Assembly (NCBI GenBank): GCA_017476765.1
Contig: JAFUZE010000252.1
Coordinates: 1-45,442 of the forward strand
Length of the DNA stretch: 45,442 nt
Reading direction: 5' to 3'
Origin: Lachnospiraceae bacterium
GTDB taxonomy: Bacteria > Bacillota > Clostridia > Lachnospirales > Lachnospiraceae
Under the pieces are notes generated by a model, which saw only the letters and a list, made by a program, of their open reading frames with translations, was not told the origin of the DNA and did not search any database. Positions 20,573 to 33,892 of the stretch are shown piece after piece. Each line of letters opens with the position of its first letter. Position 1 is the stretch's first letter. A program made the translations under genes and the position numbers.

Positions 20573-21697
20573 CTAATTATTGCATAAAGATCGGTATGTA
20601 TTGTGATAACGAGGATCCTTCATGGACGGTTCCTTGCCGGTGACGGTATAGGTGCCGGTCATCCTTCCGGCCTGTTCACCGACCTTATTGAGTGCCTTCT
20701 GGGTCAGGTGCACGCCGTCCCCCTGATAGTAGGATACCCCAAAGCTTGAGCCGATGGTCGCTGCCATGACAAACCGCGGGTCTTCCATACAGATGCGGGT
20801 CTGTACGGCTGCAATTTTATCATAGCTCTCCAGATTATTCAAATCGTTGCTGATGCGGATGATAAAGCAGCGGCTGACGTCACATTCGCTCTGTATATTG
20901 CTCATGAACAGCTCCATATGCTTGCGGTACACCGTCGTGACGATCGAGTTCATGGCGTCGTTTTCGCCCTGATAAAAGACAACGTAGACATTTCCCTTTT
21001 TCAGCCCCTTTTTCCGAAGGAGCTTCTCCATTGCCCTGACATCCGTTACAATCTCCTTGTAGTAGGATGCGCTCCACTGTCCGATGCTCGTGTTGCCCTT
21101 AGCGGTATTCATCGCCAGCACCGGTGTTTTCGCCTTTTTGTAGTAGGCGTTCACAAAAGCGGAGACAAGGGTGGCGCCCTGTGCGCTTTTTTTGGCGGTC
21201 GTTTTTTTCTGACCGACACCGAACGGCTCGACGAGATGGCTGATTTTTCCGCTTTTGGGAATCGCCTCATAAGCGGTTCCGGGAGTGACATCAGGAGCTT
21301 CGCTTGCCCGTCCTACATTGGTCATATTGCTTTGTCCGGCAAAGACGATGATGTCCATCGTATCATGGATCGTAATCTTACAGCGGCAGGTCTTCTTTGC
21401 GGTCCGGGCGGTAATGATCGTCTCGCCGCCTCCGACTGCACGAACCACCCCCTTTTTGGAAACCGTCGCAACGGCGGGATCTGCGGAGGCAAAGACCGGC
21501 TTGTTCTTCGTGCCCTTGAGGATGAGTGTGAATTTCTCGCCTTTTAAAAGAATCCGTTTCCGGACATTTAAATGGATGCCGGATGCCTTGACAGTCTGTA
21601 TGGTTTTCTGCGGAAACAGGATGGATGACAGTGGTGTCATGGATAGTAACAGGACGAGCACAAGCATCCCCCAATAGTTTCTGGACTGTTTGAACAT
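20573..21697 (-). CDS. Secreted SASA/SGNH-type esterase with Ig-like domain (copy 2)
   Basis: A 374-residue exported protein. A signal or anchor helix (residues 8-27) is followed by a bacterial Ig-like domain of about 80 residues (KRILLKGEKFTLILKG, VATVSKKGVVRAVGGGETI) and a catalytic domain of the sialate O-acetylesterase/SGNH type. Catalytic boxes are VFAGQSNMTN (Ser), YQGENDAMNS and GDGVHLTQKAL (Asp-x-x-His). The family removes acetyl groups from sugars. It lies 13 bases after a paralogue with the same architecture, so the pair arose by tandem duplication and is one transcript. Likely role: trimming acetyl groups on a host or own-surface glycan. Confidence 0.82.
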   Translation of the reverse strand: MFKQSRNYWGMLVLVLLLSMTPLSSILFPQKTIQTVKASGIHLNVRKRILLKGEKFTLILKGTKNKPVFASADPAVATVSKKGVVRAVGGGETIITARTAKKTCRCKITIHDTMDIIVFAGQSNMTNVGRASEAPDVTPGTAYEAIPKSGKISHLVEPFGVGQKKTTAKKSAQGATLVSAFVNAYYKKAKTPVLAMNTAKGNTSIGQWSASYYKEIVTDVRAMEKLLRKKGLKKGNVYVVFYQGENDAMNSIVTTVYRKHMELFMSNIQSECDVSRCFIIRISNDLNNLESYDKIAAVQTRICMEDPRFVMAATIGSSFGVSYYQGDGVHLTQKALNKVGEQAGRMTGTYTVTGKEPSMKDPRYHNTYRSLCNN

Positions 21698-21710
21698 AAT
21701 AATTCATTCC

Positions 21711-22841
21711 CTATTCTGCATTTGGCTTATATGTATTGTGATATTTTTCATCCTTGATGCTCGGCTCTTTGCCGGTTCTTGCATATTTACCCGCGTATTT
21801 TCCGGCTTCCCTGCCGATGATGTTCAGACCCTGCTGCGTAATGTGCAGCCCATCCTCCTGATAATTGCTGTCCGGAAGGGTGGCAGCCTTCGTCGAAACA
21901 AGAACAAAATTTTTATCTTTTTTACACAGCTGTGTCTGTGCCTTTAACACATTGTTGTAGAGGGAAGGCTGCTTCGTGTATTTGCCGATGCGAATGACGA
22001 GGCATGCTTCCACATCTGTTTTCTTGGAAAGATTTTTGTAAAAAAGCTTCAGGCTGTCCGTATACTCCTTGACGGTACTCCCTGCGAAGCCGTCATTTTC
22101 GCCCTGCATGTAGACGACATAAATATGGCGGATTTTCAGCTTCTTTTTCTGCAGAGCCTTCTGTGCTTTATTCAGTCTGCGGGCGGCTTCCTTGTAGTGA
22201 ATGGTACTCCAGCTGACTCTGCCGGAGCCTACGACCGTTGCACTGACACCGATGACCGGCACCTGTGTCTGCTTAAAATACTCATTGGCAAAGGCGGTGA
22301 CAAGGGAGCCGGTGCGCAAATTGCCGTCCCTCATCGTGCCGCTGTCCTGCCCCAGACCAAACGGCTCGGTGATCGGATTTAGCTGGTTTGGATTTGTGAC
22401 GACCTTGCACTCGTATCCTGCTCCGTCCGTCAGGGCAGGAGCGAGGGCTGGATCGCCTCGTCCGGTCATGTTGCTCTGCCCGGCAAACAGGAGCAGATCG
22501 ACCGTATCCGAAACCGTGACCTTGCAGGTATATTTTTTCTTTCCGATTTTTGCGACGATGACGGCAGTTCCGGCTTTCTTGCCAAGTACCTTGCCGCTCC
22601 CCGATACGGATGCGACCGATGGGGACTTGGACGAGAAGGTGACCGTCTGCTCCGTATCGGCGCTCAAAATAAACGATTCTCCCTTTAAAATTTGCTTTGC
22701 TTTATAATTTAAAGGATTTTTGGCGGCTGCCTCTGCTGTCATGGCAAATCCGGGCAAAAGCTGCGGCGGAAACGGTGAGATGAAGACGGCAGCGATAAAA
22801 AGTACAGTTCCTAAAAAGAGTGGTATGCAGTTTTTTTTCAT
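21711..22841 (-). CDS. Secreted SASA/SGNH-type esterase with Ig-like domain (copy 1)
   Basis: A 376-residue exported protein with a cleavable signal peptide, probable cleavage after AEA around residue 39. An Ig-like domain (KQILKGESFILSADTEQTVTF, VASVSGSGKVLGKKAGTAVIV) precedes the SGNH-like domain: LLFAGQSNMTGRGDPA (Ser box), YMQGENDGFAG and QEDGLHITQQGLN (Asp-x-x-His). Start ATG has AGAGGAATT upstream. It is first in a minus-strand transcript that includes its paralogue and probably the flavoprotein. The two copies share the plan but differ widely in sequence, so the duplication is old and substrates may differ. Acetyl-sugar esterase activity is inferred from the family. Confidence 0.84.
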   Translation of the reverse strand: MKKNCIPLFLGTVLFIAAVFISPFPPQLLPGFAMTAEAAAKNPLNYKAKQILKGESFILSADTEQTVTFSSKSPSVASVSGSGKVLGKKAGTAVIVAKIGKKKYTCKVTVSDTVDLLLFAGQSNMTGRGDPALAPALTDGAGYECKVVTNPNQLNPITEPFGLGQDSGTMRDGNLRTGSLVTAFANEYFKQTQVPVIGVSATVVGSGRVSWSTIHYKEAARRLNKAQKALQKKKLKIRHIYVVYMQGENDGFAGSTVKEYTDSLKLFYKNLSKKTDVEACLVIRIGKYTKQPSLYNNVLKAQTQLCKKDKNFVLVSTKAATLPDSNYQEDGLHITQQGLNIIGREAGKYAGKYARTGKEPSIKDEKYHNTYKPNAE

Positions 22842-23056: not shown

Positions 23057-23533
23057 ATGGAAAAGGAAAAACGGAGAAAAAGACAGCTTGGCATATGGGG
23101 ACTTCGGATTTTGCTCCTGTCCGCGCTACTTTTCCTTTATCCGATGGACTCTCAGGCGGCAAAGACAGATAAATACGGCACGTTTACGGGCAAGGCTCCG
23201 GATACCTACTCGATTTCCGGGGATACGCTCTACTTTTATCCGAAAAAAATTTATTACTCCGGGAACAAAATCGTATGCTATGCCTATGTGGTCAACAAGA
23301 CCGGACACAAGATCAAGGGGCTGTCGGATGTGACATTGACGCTGCGGAATAAGAAAAAGAAAACGGTGGCGCAGTATACGTTTAAGAAAAAAAGGAATAT
23401 CACGATCGCAAACAATAAATATAAGACGATAAAGTATATTTTTCCGAAATCGTCCGTAAAGATGAAAAAATTCTATTTTAAAAATGCAAAGAGAATGTCC
23501 ATCCGGGCTTCCTTTACTTATTATCTGCCGTAG
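23057..23533 (+). CDS. Small secreted protein, possibly SLAP-like
   Basis: A 158-residue protein with a classic signal peptide (basic MEKEKRRKRQ, hydrophobic helix, probable cleavage after SQA at residue 34). The mature part of about 124 residues is rich in Lys and Tyr and looks like a single beta-sandwich (IYYSGNKIVCYAYVVNKTGHKI, TLTLRNKKKKTVAQYTFKK), reminiscent of clostridial SLAP surface domains, though I cannot confirm the match. With a net strong positive charge it may bind wall polymers or anionic glycans. The ribosome site AGGTGAGG is close to the ATG. The next gene follows after 29 bases, so both are probably one transcript. Confidence 0.7.
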   Translation: MEKEKRRKRQLGIWGLRILLLSALLFLYPMDSQAAKTDKYGTFTGKAPDTYSISGDTLYFYPKKIYYSGNKIVCYAYVVNKTGHKIKGLSDVTLTLRNKKKKTVAQYTFKKKRNITIANNKYKTIKYIFPKSSVKMKKFYFKNAKRMSIRASFTYYLP

Positions 23534-24353: not shown

Positions 24354-24491
24354 TCTGCTCACCGGTAATGGCAAGGACTGATTTCTGACGTCGCTCTCTT
24401 TTTCGTTATTTTCTACAAATTCTGATGCAGGAAGGGGAGTTCGCAAATTTCTGTGCCGGTATTATTCAGAAGGAGGTGCATGGAACAGTAA

Positions 24492-27400
24492 ATGAAGCAA
24501 AAAGAAAGGCAAAGGTATCTTTTTCGCCTGTTGAGTATTTCCTGTCTGCTGATCGGCTTGCTGTCCGCCTTGCTGCGACCATTCGGCGGAGGATGGAAGG
24601 CTTATGCGGGATACATCGAAGCGGAGCCGGAGGCGGTCGTCATAGGCAGAGAGGAAGTGGAAGAAAATCCGCAGGAGCAATCACGGCAGGAGACTGACGG
24701 GGCAGGAGCGCAGGCGCAGCCGAAGCAGGATGATTCGGGGGGAGCAGCGCAGAGACAACCGCAGAAGGAGGATGTCGGGGCAGGAGCGCAGGCGCAATCA
24801 CAGCAGGAAACGGTCGGGAAGGCGGAGAGTGGAAGGACTTCAAAGCAGACCTCAGACACGATCTCCGAAGCTCAGACAGGTACGAGTTATCCGCAGAATG
24901 CTGAAAGGCAGCAGCAGAATCGGGGCAGTACGGCAGTGCACGGAGCGGGCAGCGGAACCGGCACGGAGCAGCAGGATGCCGCAGATAGTTCTCCGGCAGT
25001 CAGTCAGAATTCCTCGATTCGGCGCATTGTTACGGAGGGAATTGCTTCCCATCAGGTGCAATCGGGTCAGGTATCACAAAACAATCCTTCATATAGCGAC
25101 AAATCACAATCCAATCATCAGAACAATCAAAATCAGTACAATCAAAATAATCAAAATCAAAATAATCAAAATCAAAACAATCATCAGAAGTATTCAAGAA
25201 AACAATCCAGTGAAACAAAGAATGGGGAAAGCACGCCTGCAATGGAGAAAGCAGATGCGTTCGCTGCATCGCAAAAGAGAGAAACGGTGGATGAAGCGGA
25301 GACGGCAGGTGTAACGGAAATAGCAGAAAAAACAGAAAGCTCACATACACAGAGCAACACAAAATCAATGCAGATATCAAGAGCAGAGGGAGAATACCGT
25401 CTGTGGATTGCAGGTCTTTTTGTCATCTACAGTACGACTGTTCTTCTATGGTTTTTGATATGCCGTGTTAAGGGAGGAAAAGAAAAGATGAAAATGTTAT
25501 GGAAGAAAATGGTAGGCTTATTTTTGCTGATGCTGTTTATGGCGGTCGAAAGTCCGCATTCGGCATATGCAGCGGAACAGACGGACCTTTTTGCCTTTGA
25601 CTGGAGGCAGGCATCCGATGAGGAGATCAATCATATGCTGGGTATTACCGATTACGAGGAAATCGGTTATTGGCTTCGTGCCATGCCGGAGGAGGAGCTA
25701 AGTGAGCTGCTGACCCGTGATACGGTGCTGCCGAAACAGACCTCGTTTGTCACCTATGGCATCGGGGAAAATGGGGAATGGACCGAGGAAAAGACCGAGG
25801 AGAACACCTATTACGAGTATTGCATGTCACAGGCAACGGGTCTTGTAAAGGCGCAGAAGTTTCTGCATGCCAGCGGATATTTTGATTACAGGTTTGTGAT
25901 GAAAACAGGTGGGGCGGACAAGGTGTCCCGTTACAGGATGAAAATATCCGGTCTGGATACGGAAAAGACGACAAAGGAGCAGCAGACAGTGACTGTCAAC
26001 ATTACGGCGGTGGAGGAGACAAACGGCAATTTTGCCGGTTTTTCGGCAAAAGCGGGAAATTATAATGCGGTTTCCGGCTATAACACGAAAAAACTGGACA
26101 ATGAACTGGACGGCAGCGGGAATTATTACAACCTGCTTTCCGGATTCGGCTTCACAAAGCCCGCCGGCTACACGGCTGCATTTCAAAGGGAAAACTATAA
26201 AGCCGGAAAGGCTGTGGTCTACTATTACGACAATAATAACTTTAAGACAAGCAAAAAGGAATTTACGGGAGATACAAACAGTGCGGAAGCAGTCTGGGAA
26301 AGTCTGGTTTCTTACACAAATATCATCAATAATACGACGGTTGGAGGCTCTTCTGAAGGGGAGGGAAAGGCTGTGTGCTACACATTTACCTTCTACCCGG
26401 TCACTTATACCGTCCAGTATAACGGAAACGGTGCAACGAGCGGAAGTGTGGCGCAGCAAAGCTGTACATACGGGCAGAGCTATTATACACAGCAAAACGG
26501 TTATGCAAAGCAGTTTCCCGTGACCTATAACGGCAACGGAGGAACGTCCGATAAGGCAGGTGATACCGCATCGTACGTGTTCAAGGGATGGGGCTTGGAA
26601 AACGCTGCTTCCGTTACACATGCGGCAAGTCAGGCTTATTCCAATGTAAAAAATACGCAGGGTGCTATTGGAACGTTTTATGCAATCTGGAATCCGGCAG
26701 GGGTCGTTCTTCCCTCTGCGCAAAGAGCGGGTTATACCTTCAAGGGCTGGAATGCGGACAGCAGGGCGTCAAGCGGAATGGGCGAAGGGACAGCCTTCAC
26801 TCCGGCAGCAGGGACTACTTTGTATGCCACATGGGAGGCAAATAAGTACACGATTGAGTATTACGATGGTATGACAGGAAGAAAGAGAGGCTCACAGAGC
26901 ATGACATATGGGGTAAGTGCACCTTTAAAAAAGGCAGAGGAGCTGGAAATTGCCAGAGCAGGCTATCAGTTTAGGGGATGGGCGGGTAACGGCGGAACGT
27001 ATCAGGACGGTCAGAGCGTGTCCGATCTGACAACAAAAAACGGCGGGACGGTGGCGCTGTCAGCTGTCTGGGAAGCCTGCACGGAAACCCCGTATGAGGT
27101 AAGACATCTTTTGGAAACCACGCAGGGTTCCGGTCAATATGTGCTGCGGGAGACGGAACGCCTGACCGCAACAACGGGTGCGAGCGTGACTCCGGCGACG
27201 AAGGTCTATGAGAACTATGCCGCTCCGTCTATGACGACGGTAACTGTTGCCGGAGACGGCAGCACGGTCGTCAGTTATTACTACAAGTGGCAGGGAAGTG
27301 CAGAGGACAGCGGAACTGCGAATCATACGACGAATATCGATCATGCGAACGGTACAATTAACACGGACAATACAAGCGGCGCAAGCAATGCAAACAATAC

Positions 27401-28211
27401 CAATCATGCGGGCAGTACGGACAATACAAACGATACAAGCGGTGCTGACGATAGGAACAGCCGCAGCAGCGCAAGTTTGAATGAGGGCAACCGCGCAGAG
27501 GAGGATCTGAATCATTTTAAGGCGGGAGATACCAGATATATTGTGGATGCATCCGGCAACAAGTATGAAATTTATGTCAATCCGGACGGGACGCTTACCA
27601 TCCGTTCGATGTCTGCCGCTGCCTCCGGGAAGGGGAATGTAAAAATAGCGGGCACGCTGTCGATCAACAACACCAAATATAAGGTGACGGAGATTGCTCC
27701 GTATGCGTTTCAAAACAATAAGAAGATAAAAACCGTGACGATCGGAAATGGCATTACTGCAATCGGAAAAAGCGCGTTTGAAGGCTGTACGAAGCTTAGG
27801 AGCGTAAAGCTCGGAACGGGTGTATCGGTCATCGGAACGAGGGCATTTTACGGATGCACCGCACTGGAAACCGTCAGGACACCAAAGACGCTGACAAGAA
27901 TTGAAGCAAAAGCGTTTTACAACTGTAAGAAGCTGAAAAGCTTCACGATCGGCAAATATGTCAGGAGCATTGGCTCGAAAGCGTTTTATAACTGCAGGAA
28001 GCTGAAAAAAATAACGGTCTCGGAGAGCGTGGAGCTGATTGAAAAGCAGGCATTTTATCAGTGCAGCAGCTTAAAAAGTGTCCGGATCAGGAGCACAAGG
28101 CTCGTCAAAATCGGAAGCGGAGCTTTTAAAAAATGTAACAGAAGCCTGAAATTTACCGTGCCGGCTAAGAAGAAAAAGGCATATATGAGGCTGTTAAAAG
28201 GAAAGGCGTAA
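24492..28211 (+). CDS. 1239-residue surface protein with internal signal peptide, InlB-type and BspA-type repeats
   Basis: Residues 10-35 are a first export signal. Residues 50-300 are low-complexity: two GAGAQAQ-containing Gln-rich repeats (DNA repeats 24699-24718 and 24777-24796) and an Asn/Gln tract near 208-238. A membrane helix near 306-328 with a basic end resembles a wall-anchor tail without LPXTG. It is followed, from Met333, by what looks like a second complete signal peptide (MKMLWKKMVGLFLLMLFMA to AYAAEQ). Then come InlB B-repeat or Flg_new modules (YNGNGGTS, GYTFKGWN, YQFRGWAG), a MucBP-like module, an Asn/Thr linker and about six BspA-type leucine-rich repeats. It should be an exported adhesin. 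AAGGAGG lies before the start; a three-codon frame ATG-GAA-CAG-TAA directly precedes ATG 24492. Confidence 0.82.
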   Translation: MKQKERQRYLFRLLSISCLLIGLLSALLRPFGGGWKAYAGYIEAEPEAVVIGREEVEENPQEQSRQETDGAGAQAQPKQDDSGGAAQRQPQKEDVGAGAQAQSQQETVGKAESGRTSKQTSDTISEAQTGTSYPQNAERQQQNRGSTAVHGAGSGTGTEQQDAADSSPAVSQNSSIRRIVTEGIASHQVQSGQVSQNNPSYSDKSQSNHQNNQNQYNQNNQNQNNQNQNNHQKYSRKQSSETKNGESTPAMEKADAFAASQKRETVDEAETAGVTEIAEKTESSHTQSNTKSMQISRAEGEYRLWIAGLFVIYSTTVLLWFLICRVKGGKEKMKMLWKKMVGLFLLMLFMAVESPHSAYAAEQTDLFAFDWRQASDEEINHMLGITDYEEIGYWLRAMPEEELSELLTRDTVLPKQTSFVTYGIGENGEWTEEKTEENTYYEYCMSQATGLVKAQKFLHASGYFDYRFVMKTGGADKVSRYRMKISGLDTEKTTKEQQTVTVNITAVEETNGNFAGFSAKAGNYNAVSGYNTKKLDNELDGSGNYYNLLSGFGFTKPAGYTAAFQRENYKAGKAVVYYYDNNNFKTSKKEFTGDTNSAEAVWESLVSYTNIINNTTVGGSSEGEGKAVCYTFTFYPVTYTVQYNGNGATSGSVAQQSCTYGQSYYTQQNGYAKQFPVTYNGNGGTSDKAGDTASYVFKGWGLENAASVTHAASQAYSNVKNTQGAIGTFYAIWNPAGVVLPSAQRAGYTFKGWNADSRASSGMGEGTAFTPAAGTTLYATWEANKYTIEYYDGMTGRKRGSQSMTYGVSAPLKKAEELEIARAGYQFRGWAGNGGTYQDGQSVSDLTTKNGGTVALSAVWEACTETPYEVRHLLETTQGSGQYVLRETERLTATTGASVTPATKVYENYAAPSMTTVTVAGDGSTVVSYYYKWQGSAEDSGTANHTTNIDHANGTINTDNTSGASNANNTNHAGSTDNTNDTSGADDRNSRSSASLNEGNRAEEDLNHFKAGDTRYIVDASGNKYEIYVNPDGTLTIRSMSAAASGKGNVKIAGTLSINNTKYKVTEIAPYAFQNNKKIKTVTIGNGITAIGKSAFEGCTKLRSVKLGTGVSVIGTRAFYGCTALETVRTPKTLTRIEAKAFYNCKKLKSFTIGKYVRSIGSKAFYNCRKLKKITVSESVELIEKQAFYQCSSLKSVRIRSTRLVKIGSGAFKKCNRSLKFTVPAKKKKAYMRLLKGKA
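25471..25490 (+). promoter_or_regulatory. Internal ribosome site and start inside the giant gene
   Basis: AGGGAGG (25471-25477) stands 10 bases before ATG 25488, in frame with the long gene and exactly at the start of the second signal peptide. A 907-residue protein (25488-28211) could be made from here, with or without the full-length product. Confidence 0.55.
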
Positions 28212-28281
28212 ATCAGATTGCTGGTCTGCAGGGCATAAATCAGATTGCTGGTCTGCAGGGCATAAATTAGATTGCTGGTCT
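28209..28281. repeat. 27-bp tandem repeat, 2.7 copies, at the 3' end of the giant gene
   Basis: Units 28209-28235 and 28236-28262 are identical, followed by a partial unit to 28281 with one change. The unit starts TAAATCAGATTGCTGGTC. The stop codon of the surface-protein gene is the first TAA of unit 1. Confidence 0.9.
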
Positions 28282-33587: not shown

Positions 33588-33892
33588 TTTCAGTGCAAAA
33601 TGATTCCCACGGATTGTTCCGCACTTCGTGCTCCCACAATCCTCCCCGGATACAACAGGGAGACCCTGTTGTCTTGTATTCGCATTCTTGTGGTGCTTCG
33701 CCCCACTTCATGCTCATATCGGGGCGTGCAGGAAACCCATCTCTCCACTTATGTGAAAGCGGGGCGTGGAGAATGGCTTTTTGCACTGGAATCATAAATT
33801 TGTGACAGGATGGCTTACAACCGAACCGGTTGTTGCTATCGGAGACATAAACAGATAGCATAGGCAATTGCGAAGCTTTGCAAGGTTTCGCA
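33588..33892. repeat. Hairpin-rich intergenic region, MITE-like in its first 200 bases
   Basis: CAGTGCAAAA (33591-33600) is repeated inverted as TTTTTGCACTG (33778-33788). Between them fold ACAACAGGG/CCCTGTTGT, CGCCCC/GGGGCG and TCTCCAC/GTGGAGA. Downstream are ACAACCG/CGGTTGT (33817-33833), GCTATC/GATAGC (33835-33859) and a near-palindrome at 33869-33892. No supportable gene lies in 33577-33951. Confidence 0.6.

Follow-up and report, generated by a model that had tools for sequence, protein, structure and literature searches.

On the forward strand of a 45,442-nt stretch of DNA from a Lachnospiraceae bacterium (contig JAFUZE010000252.1, assembly GCA_017476765.1; the entire stretch is hereafter referred to as the window), positions 24492-28211 form one open frame of 1239 amino acids that is stop-free to its end (TAA, 28209-28211). 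Unless stated otherwise, coordinates are window positions on the + strand. Hydropathy is maximal at three places in the frame: residues 7-35 (first signal peptide), residues 303-325 (KD 2.2, then the tail RVKGGKEK) and residues 333-360 (second signal peptide). The frame thus falls into two halves, gene A (half 1, 24492-25487) and gene B (half 2, 25488-28211), in agreement with the original prediction of a signal peptide and a membrane anchor tail up to residue 332, all in one frame, the coordinates of which all hold. No riboswitch or other Rfam element was found at the locus. Elsewhere in the window, a Clostridiales-1 RNA (RF01699, 71.6 bits) lies at 33601-33794 (- strand), and a pair of neighbouring secreted SASA-family esterases that resemble each other and carry Big-like domains (20573-22841, - strand) apparently represents a tandem duplication. 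Just upstream of the frame, a small exported protein (23057-23533) matches SLAP_DUP (TIGR04398, 35.7 bits, exceeding the cut-off).

Half 1 is preceded by a Shine-Dalgarno sequence (AAGGAGG, 24470-24476, duplex energy -14.4 kcal/mol) that lies 15 nt from its ATG (24492) and 3 nt from another ATG (24480), the latter opening a three-codon mini-ORF (ATG GAA CAG TAA, 24480-24491) with a stop that adjoins the start of half 1 (TAAATG). Since the spacing is poor to both start codons, translation of half 1 may begin by reinitiation after the mini-ORF. The hydropathy profile and a signal rule scan place the first signal peptide at residues 1-39 (24492-24608, ending KAYA|G). It is followed by a putatively exported stretch of some 260 residues (residues 40-302, 24609-25397), assigned by its Q/S/A/E/N-rich composition and carrying tandem repeats (39-bp and 9/15/24-bp), and by a membrane helix (residues 303-323, 25398-25460, KD hydropathy 2.2). 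Searches of 298 other genomes of the family detected no relative of half 1. Codon use was best in frame 0 for seven of nine 120-bp windows of this half, and stops are confined to the other frames (eight in frame 1, ten in frame 2, none in frame 0); for these reasons half 1 is, by its coding signature, very probably a genuine gene.

The junction is compact. Behind the helix lies a positive linker (CRVKGGKEK, residues 324-332, 25461-25487) that is predicted to be cytoplasmic, and the 16-residue loop preceding the second signal peptide holds seven K/R and one D/E. Within the linker sits an internal Shine-Dalgarno sequence (AGGGAGG, 25471-25477, -11.7 kcal/mol), and at Met333 begins a full signal peptide with the sequence MKMLWKKMVGLFLLMLFMAVESPHSAYA|A (residues 333-360, 25488-25571, AYA|A cleavage), the start of which coincides with those of the relatives described below. 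Both elements had been predicted, and the AGGGAGG does lie exactly 10 nt ahead of the ATG at 25488. The two other frames are closed within 20 bp of the junction, frame 2 by a TAA at 25469 (just 5' of the Shine-Dalgarno sequence) and frame 1 by a TGA at 25489, which overlaps the ATG at 25488 as ATGA.

Half 2 opens, after its signal peptide, with an N-terminal domain of ~280 residues (25572-26423; helices, then a beta-rich part) that was delimited by alignment and by an AlphaFold model (mean pLDDT 73), and for which a Foldseek search of this model against the PDB gave no known fold match (best TM ~0.15). It continues with a region of Listeria-Bacteroides repeats (Flg_new, PF09479/TIGR02543; 26424-27287, limits approximate), of which the best single repeat spans residues 741-779, an N/S/T/D-rich linker (27288-27519, limits approximate) and BspA-type leucine-rich repeats (LRR_5, PF13306; 27672-28199; E 6e-56 with half 2 alone). 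The scores are above the cut-offs (PF13306, 188 bits against a gathering score of 27.7; PF09479, 38 against 27; TIGR02543, 39 against 20.95), and the surface-protein family in which half 2 takes an ordinary place is already known. Assignment to the HupY/LrrG adhesin equivalog (NF047961) was rejected, as the match reached only 45 of the 1250 bits required and covered the leucine-rich repeats alone. A 27-bp tandem repeat (28205-28281, 2.9 copies, 96% alike) begins where the frame ends, at its stop codon.

The start at 25488 is well formed. Its Shine-Dalgarno duplex energy (-11.7 kcal/mol) falls among those of the other well-marked starts of the window (about -10 to -14), and the surrounding region is unusually unstructured (-3.3 kcal/mol per 70 nt, against an ORF folding mean of -14.3 and sd of 5.2; 3.7% of positions are equally weak). 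When the window was scanned with lax cut-offs (signal-like sequence, Shine-Dalgarno <= -9), about two internal starts were expected (20 x 61 / 541) and two were observed, both at the 25488 site; as this count equals the chance expectation, the combination of Shine-Dalgarno and signal sequences is not compelling by itself. With strict cut-offs (signal score >= 4, Shine-Dalgarno <= -11) the 25488 site was the sole one in the window, none was found in 177 kb of the same genome (20 stretches around leucine-rich-repeat genes), and a single one (L051) appeared in 554 kb of other loci. The L051 site is an ordinary gene start, and the open frame upstream of it arises when another gene is read out of frame. 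None of the approximately twenty leucine-rich-repeat loci inspected in the same genome held a comparable internal start. The strong and decisive evidence comes instead from homology, the relatives beginning exactly at the position of Met333.

Relatives of half 2 were sought by scanning 84,980 species and by searching up to 397 genomes of the family. A first scan with the single protein returned no matches, whereas an alignment-based scan did recover relatives, and starts were read for eleven of them, from seven genera: four from one genus (L022, L023, L024 and L123), two from another (L093 and L124), and L017/L038, L020/L056 (Kineothrix sp. MSJ-39), L132, L133 and L018. Three are distant, with matches that are partial only (L018, L132 and L133; E 1e-13 to 1e-14). 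The second half was encoded as a separate, stand-alone gene in all eleven, every one of them beginning at the signal peptide equivalent to Met333, and in none was anything fused in front of the adhesin. Most of these genes have a good Shine-Dalgarno sequence at their start (that of L093 is weak). From the signal peptide to the last residue, half 2 is collinear with L022, L023, L024, L017/L038 and L020/L056, and identity to the aligned full-length relatives is 28-38% over all of half 2. These relatives indicate that the adhesin gene probably has its true start at the ATG at 25488 (Met333).

What precedes the adhesin differs among the relatives. In three of them (L093, L124 and L133) an unrelated gene, in no case akin to half 1, lies hard against its start: a protein-kinase gene whose end overlaps the start of the adhesin as ATGA (L093), a kinase-like gene that ends with TAA 20 nt upstream (L124), and a neighbouring gene that overlaps the longest reading of the adhesin frame by ~20 nt (L133). 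The position of the adhesin behind a protein-kinase gene (L093, 1888-6055; L124, 2488-5462) is seen in one Lachnospiraceae genus, in which Ser/Thr phosphorylation is possibly tied to the adhesin; the kinase was assigned by PF00069 in L093 and the L124 protein is similar by eye, and in L093 a further ORF stands beside kinase and adhesin, as if in a single operon. Across genera, L022, L023, L024, L056 and L132 have in common a promoter and leader upstream of the adhesin (TTGACTAAC, a 17-18 nt spacer, TATACT, followed in L022, L023, L024 and L056 by CACAAA), and L022, L023, L024 and L132 share one large upstream gene ending FFEANGN.F.TY. The idea that half 1 had been inserted between such a leader and the adhesin was discarded, as a profile search of the window did not find the relatives' promoter and leader.

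We reason that the 1239-residue frame derives from two neighbouring genes that were joined in one frame through stop loss, and that both routes of expression would lead to the same mature adhesin (a reading to which we assign a probability of roughly 0.6). Gene A would yield a small exported protein held by its C-terminal membrane helix, and gene B a secreted adhesin-like protein whose translation starts at Met333 with the help of the internal Shine-Dalgarno sequence. Ribosomes passing through A would continue into B and produce some full-length chain, predicted to thread the membrane from in to out with the first signal peptide, from out to in with the helix at residues 303-323, and again from in to out with the second signal peptide. 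Signal peptidase could then cut the long chain after AYA, so that initiation at Met333 and cutting of the long chain would release an identical mature B. Because both routes would give the same product the join would be near-neutral, which could explain its persistence. Termination-reinitiation requires an upstream stop near the downstream start in another frame, while here frame 0 runs through; as the stop is absent, this process cannot operate in the frame. Since stops in the other frames flank the junction (25469 and 25489), the gain or loss of a single base close to it, whether in the organism or only in the assembly, could convert an ordinary abutting or overlapping pair into the present arrangement; loss of the stop by substitution is as possible a route.

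The original prediction had offered three readings, namely fusion through loss of a stop, two products from one frame, and a chain that crosses the membrane twice. As an account of origin, the first is favoured by the stand-alone second half of all eleven relatives; the other two are compatible with it, given the well-formed internal start and the coherent topology, and concern products that are predicted from sequence. The search among relatives for a stop between the halves gave a partial answer: the second half is separate in each of the eleven, but the pair of half 1 and half 2 is itself without a relative. Among the genomes searched the genus is represented by the source genome alone, and viral contigs and plasmids searched for other strains or mobile copies gave no matches. 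The evidence for the join is one metagenome contig, and neither a relative of half 1 nor a congener was found that might show an ancestral stop.

An assembly artefact, by which a single-base error joined genes that are separate or ATGA-overlapping in the organism, is unlikely, though it has to be taken seriously: the assembly is metagenome-derived and fragmented (306 contigs, 93% complete), both other frames hold stops close to the junction, and an ATGA overlap is the very arrangement seen in L093. However, the frame 0 tail (ICRVKGGKEK) makes a good positive-inside anchor, and the nearby sequence bears no other signs of error. It is doubtful that the frame is a natural Gram-positive surface polyprotein, in which signal peptidase, acting at the internal signal peptide, would separate a Q/N-rich protein anchored in the membrane from a secreted adhesin with leucine-rich repeats, while the internal ribosome site set the excess of adhesin over anchor. 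Improbable as well is a functional long chain that is either cut at the second signal peptide into equal amounts of anchor and adhesin, or remains whole, with half 1 as a hairpin that anchors the adhesin in the membrane. The membrane topology would be coherent with such a chain, and an anchor could be useful, the C-termini of the relatives lacking LPXTG or an obvious anchor; yet the strong Shine-Dalgarno sequence of the internal start would be needless, the fusion occurs in none of the eleven relatives, and the uncut hairpin is unlikely because the second signal peptide has a good AXA site. That half 1 is a chance upstream frame and Met333 the only true start is very improbable, for although half 1 is of low complexity and without relatives, and the control locus L051 shows that chance frame extensions occur, it possesses its own Shine-Dalgarno sequence, signal peptide and membrane tail, the frame 0 codon bias (7/9 windows) and 332 stop-free codons against the eight and ten stops of the other frames.

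If the join is real, the locus offers a clean natural case of two exported-protein genes losing a stop at little cost, as both products could be recovered through the membrane topology and the action of signal peptidase. It also exposes an annotation hazard: the adhesin, with its likely start at Met333, would be annotated wrongly as a protein of 1239 residues that contains an internal signal peptide.

Among known systems, half 2 corresponds to a full-length member of the Lachnospiraceae proteins that combine BspA-type leucine-rich and Listeria-Bacteroides repeats (PF13306, PF09479), and differs from the stand-alone adhesins of the family in that 332 in-frame, stop-free codons precede the gene. 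FbcH of Bradyrhizobium, a cytochrome b / c1 polyprotein, is cleaved at a signal peptide that lies inside the chain. The full-length chain would resemble FbcH if it is cut at the second signal peptide (the AYA|A site and the topology are present, and cleavage is predicted), but the proteins are unrelated, the present locus has an internal ribosome site as well, and conservation of the fusion among relatives, as expected of an FbcH-like system, was seen in 0 of 11; in the literature searched we found no FbcH-like precedent. Overlapping or abutting co-directional pairs, for their part, are usually coupled by termination-reinitiation at ATGA or TGATG (PMC6728339, PMC10666635). The present locus is like them in having two adjoining genes, a Shine-Dalgarno sequence within the upstream frame and an ATGA at the junction, and unlike them in that the two genes share one stop-free frame, where only internal initiation or continued translation is possible. 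The stopless in-frame pair in this sense departs in an unusual way from a gene arrangement that is itself common.
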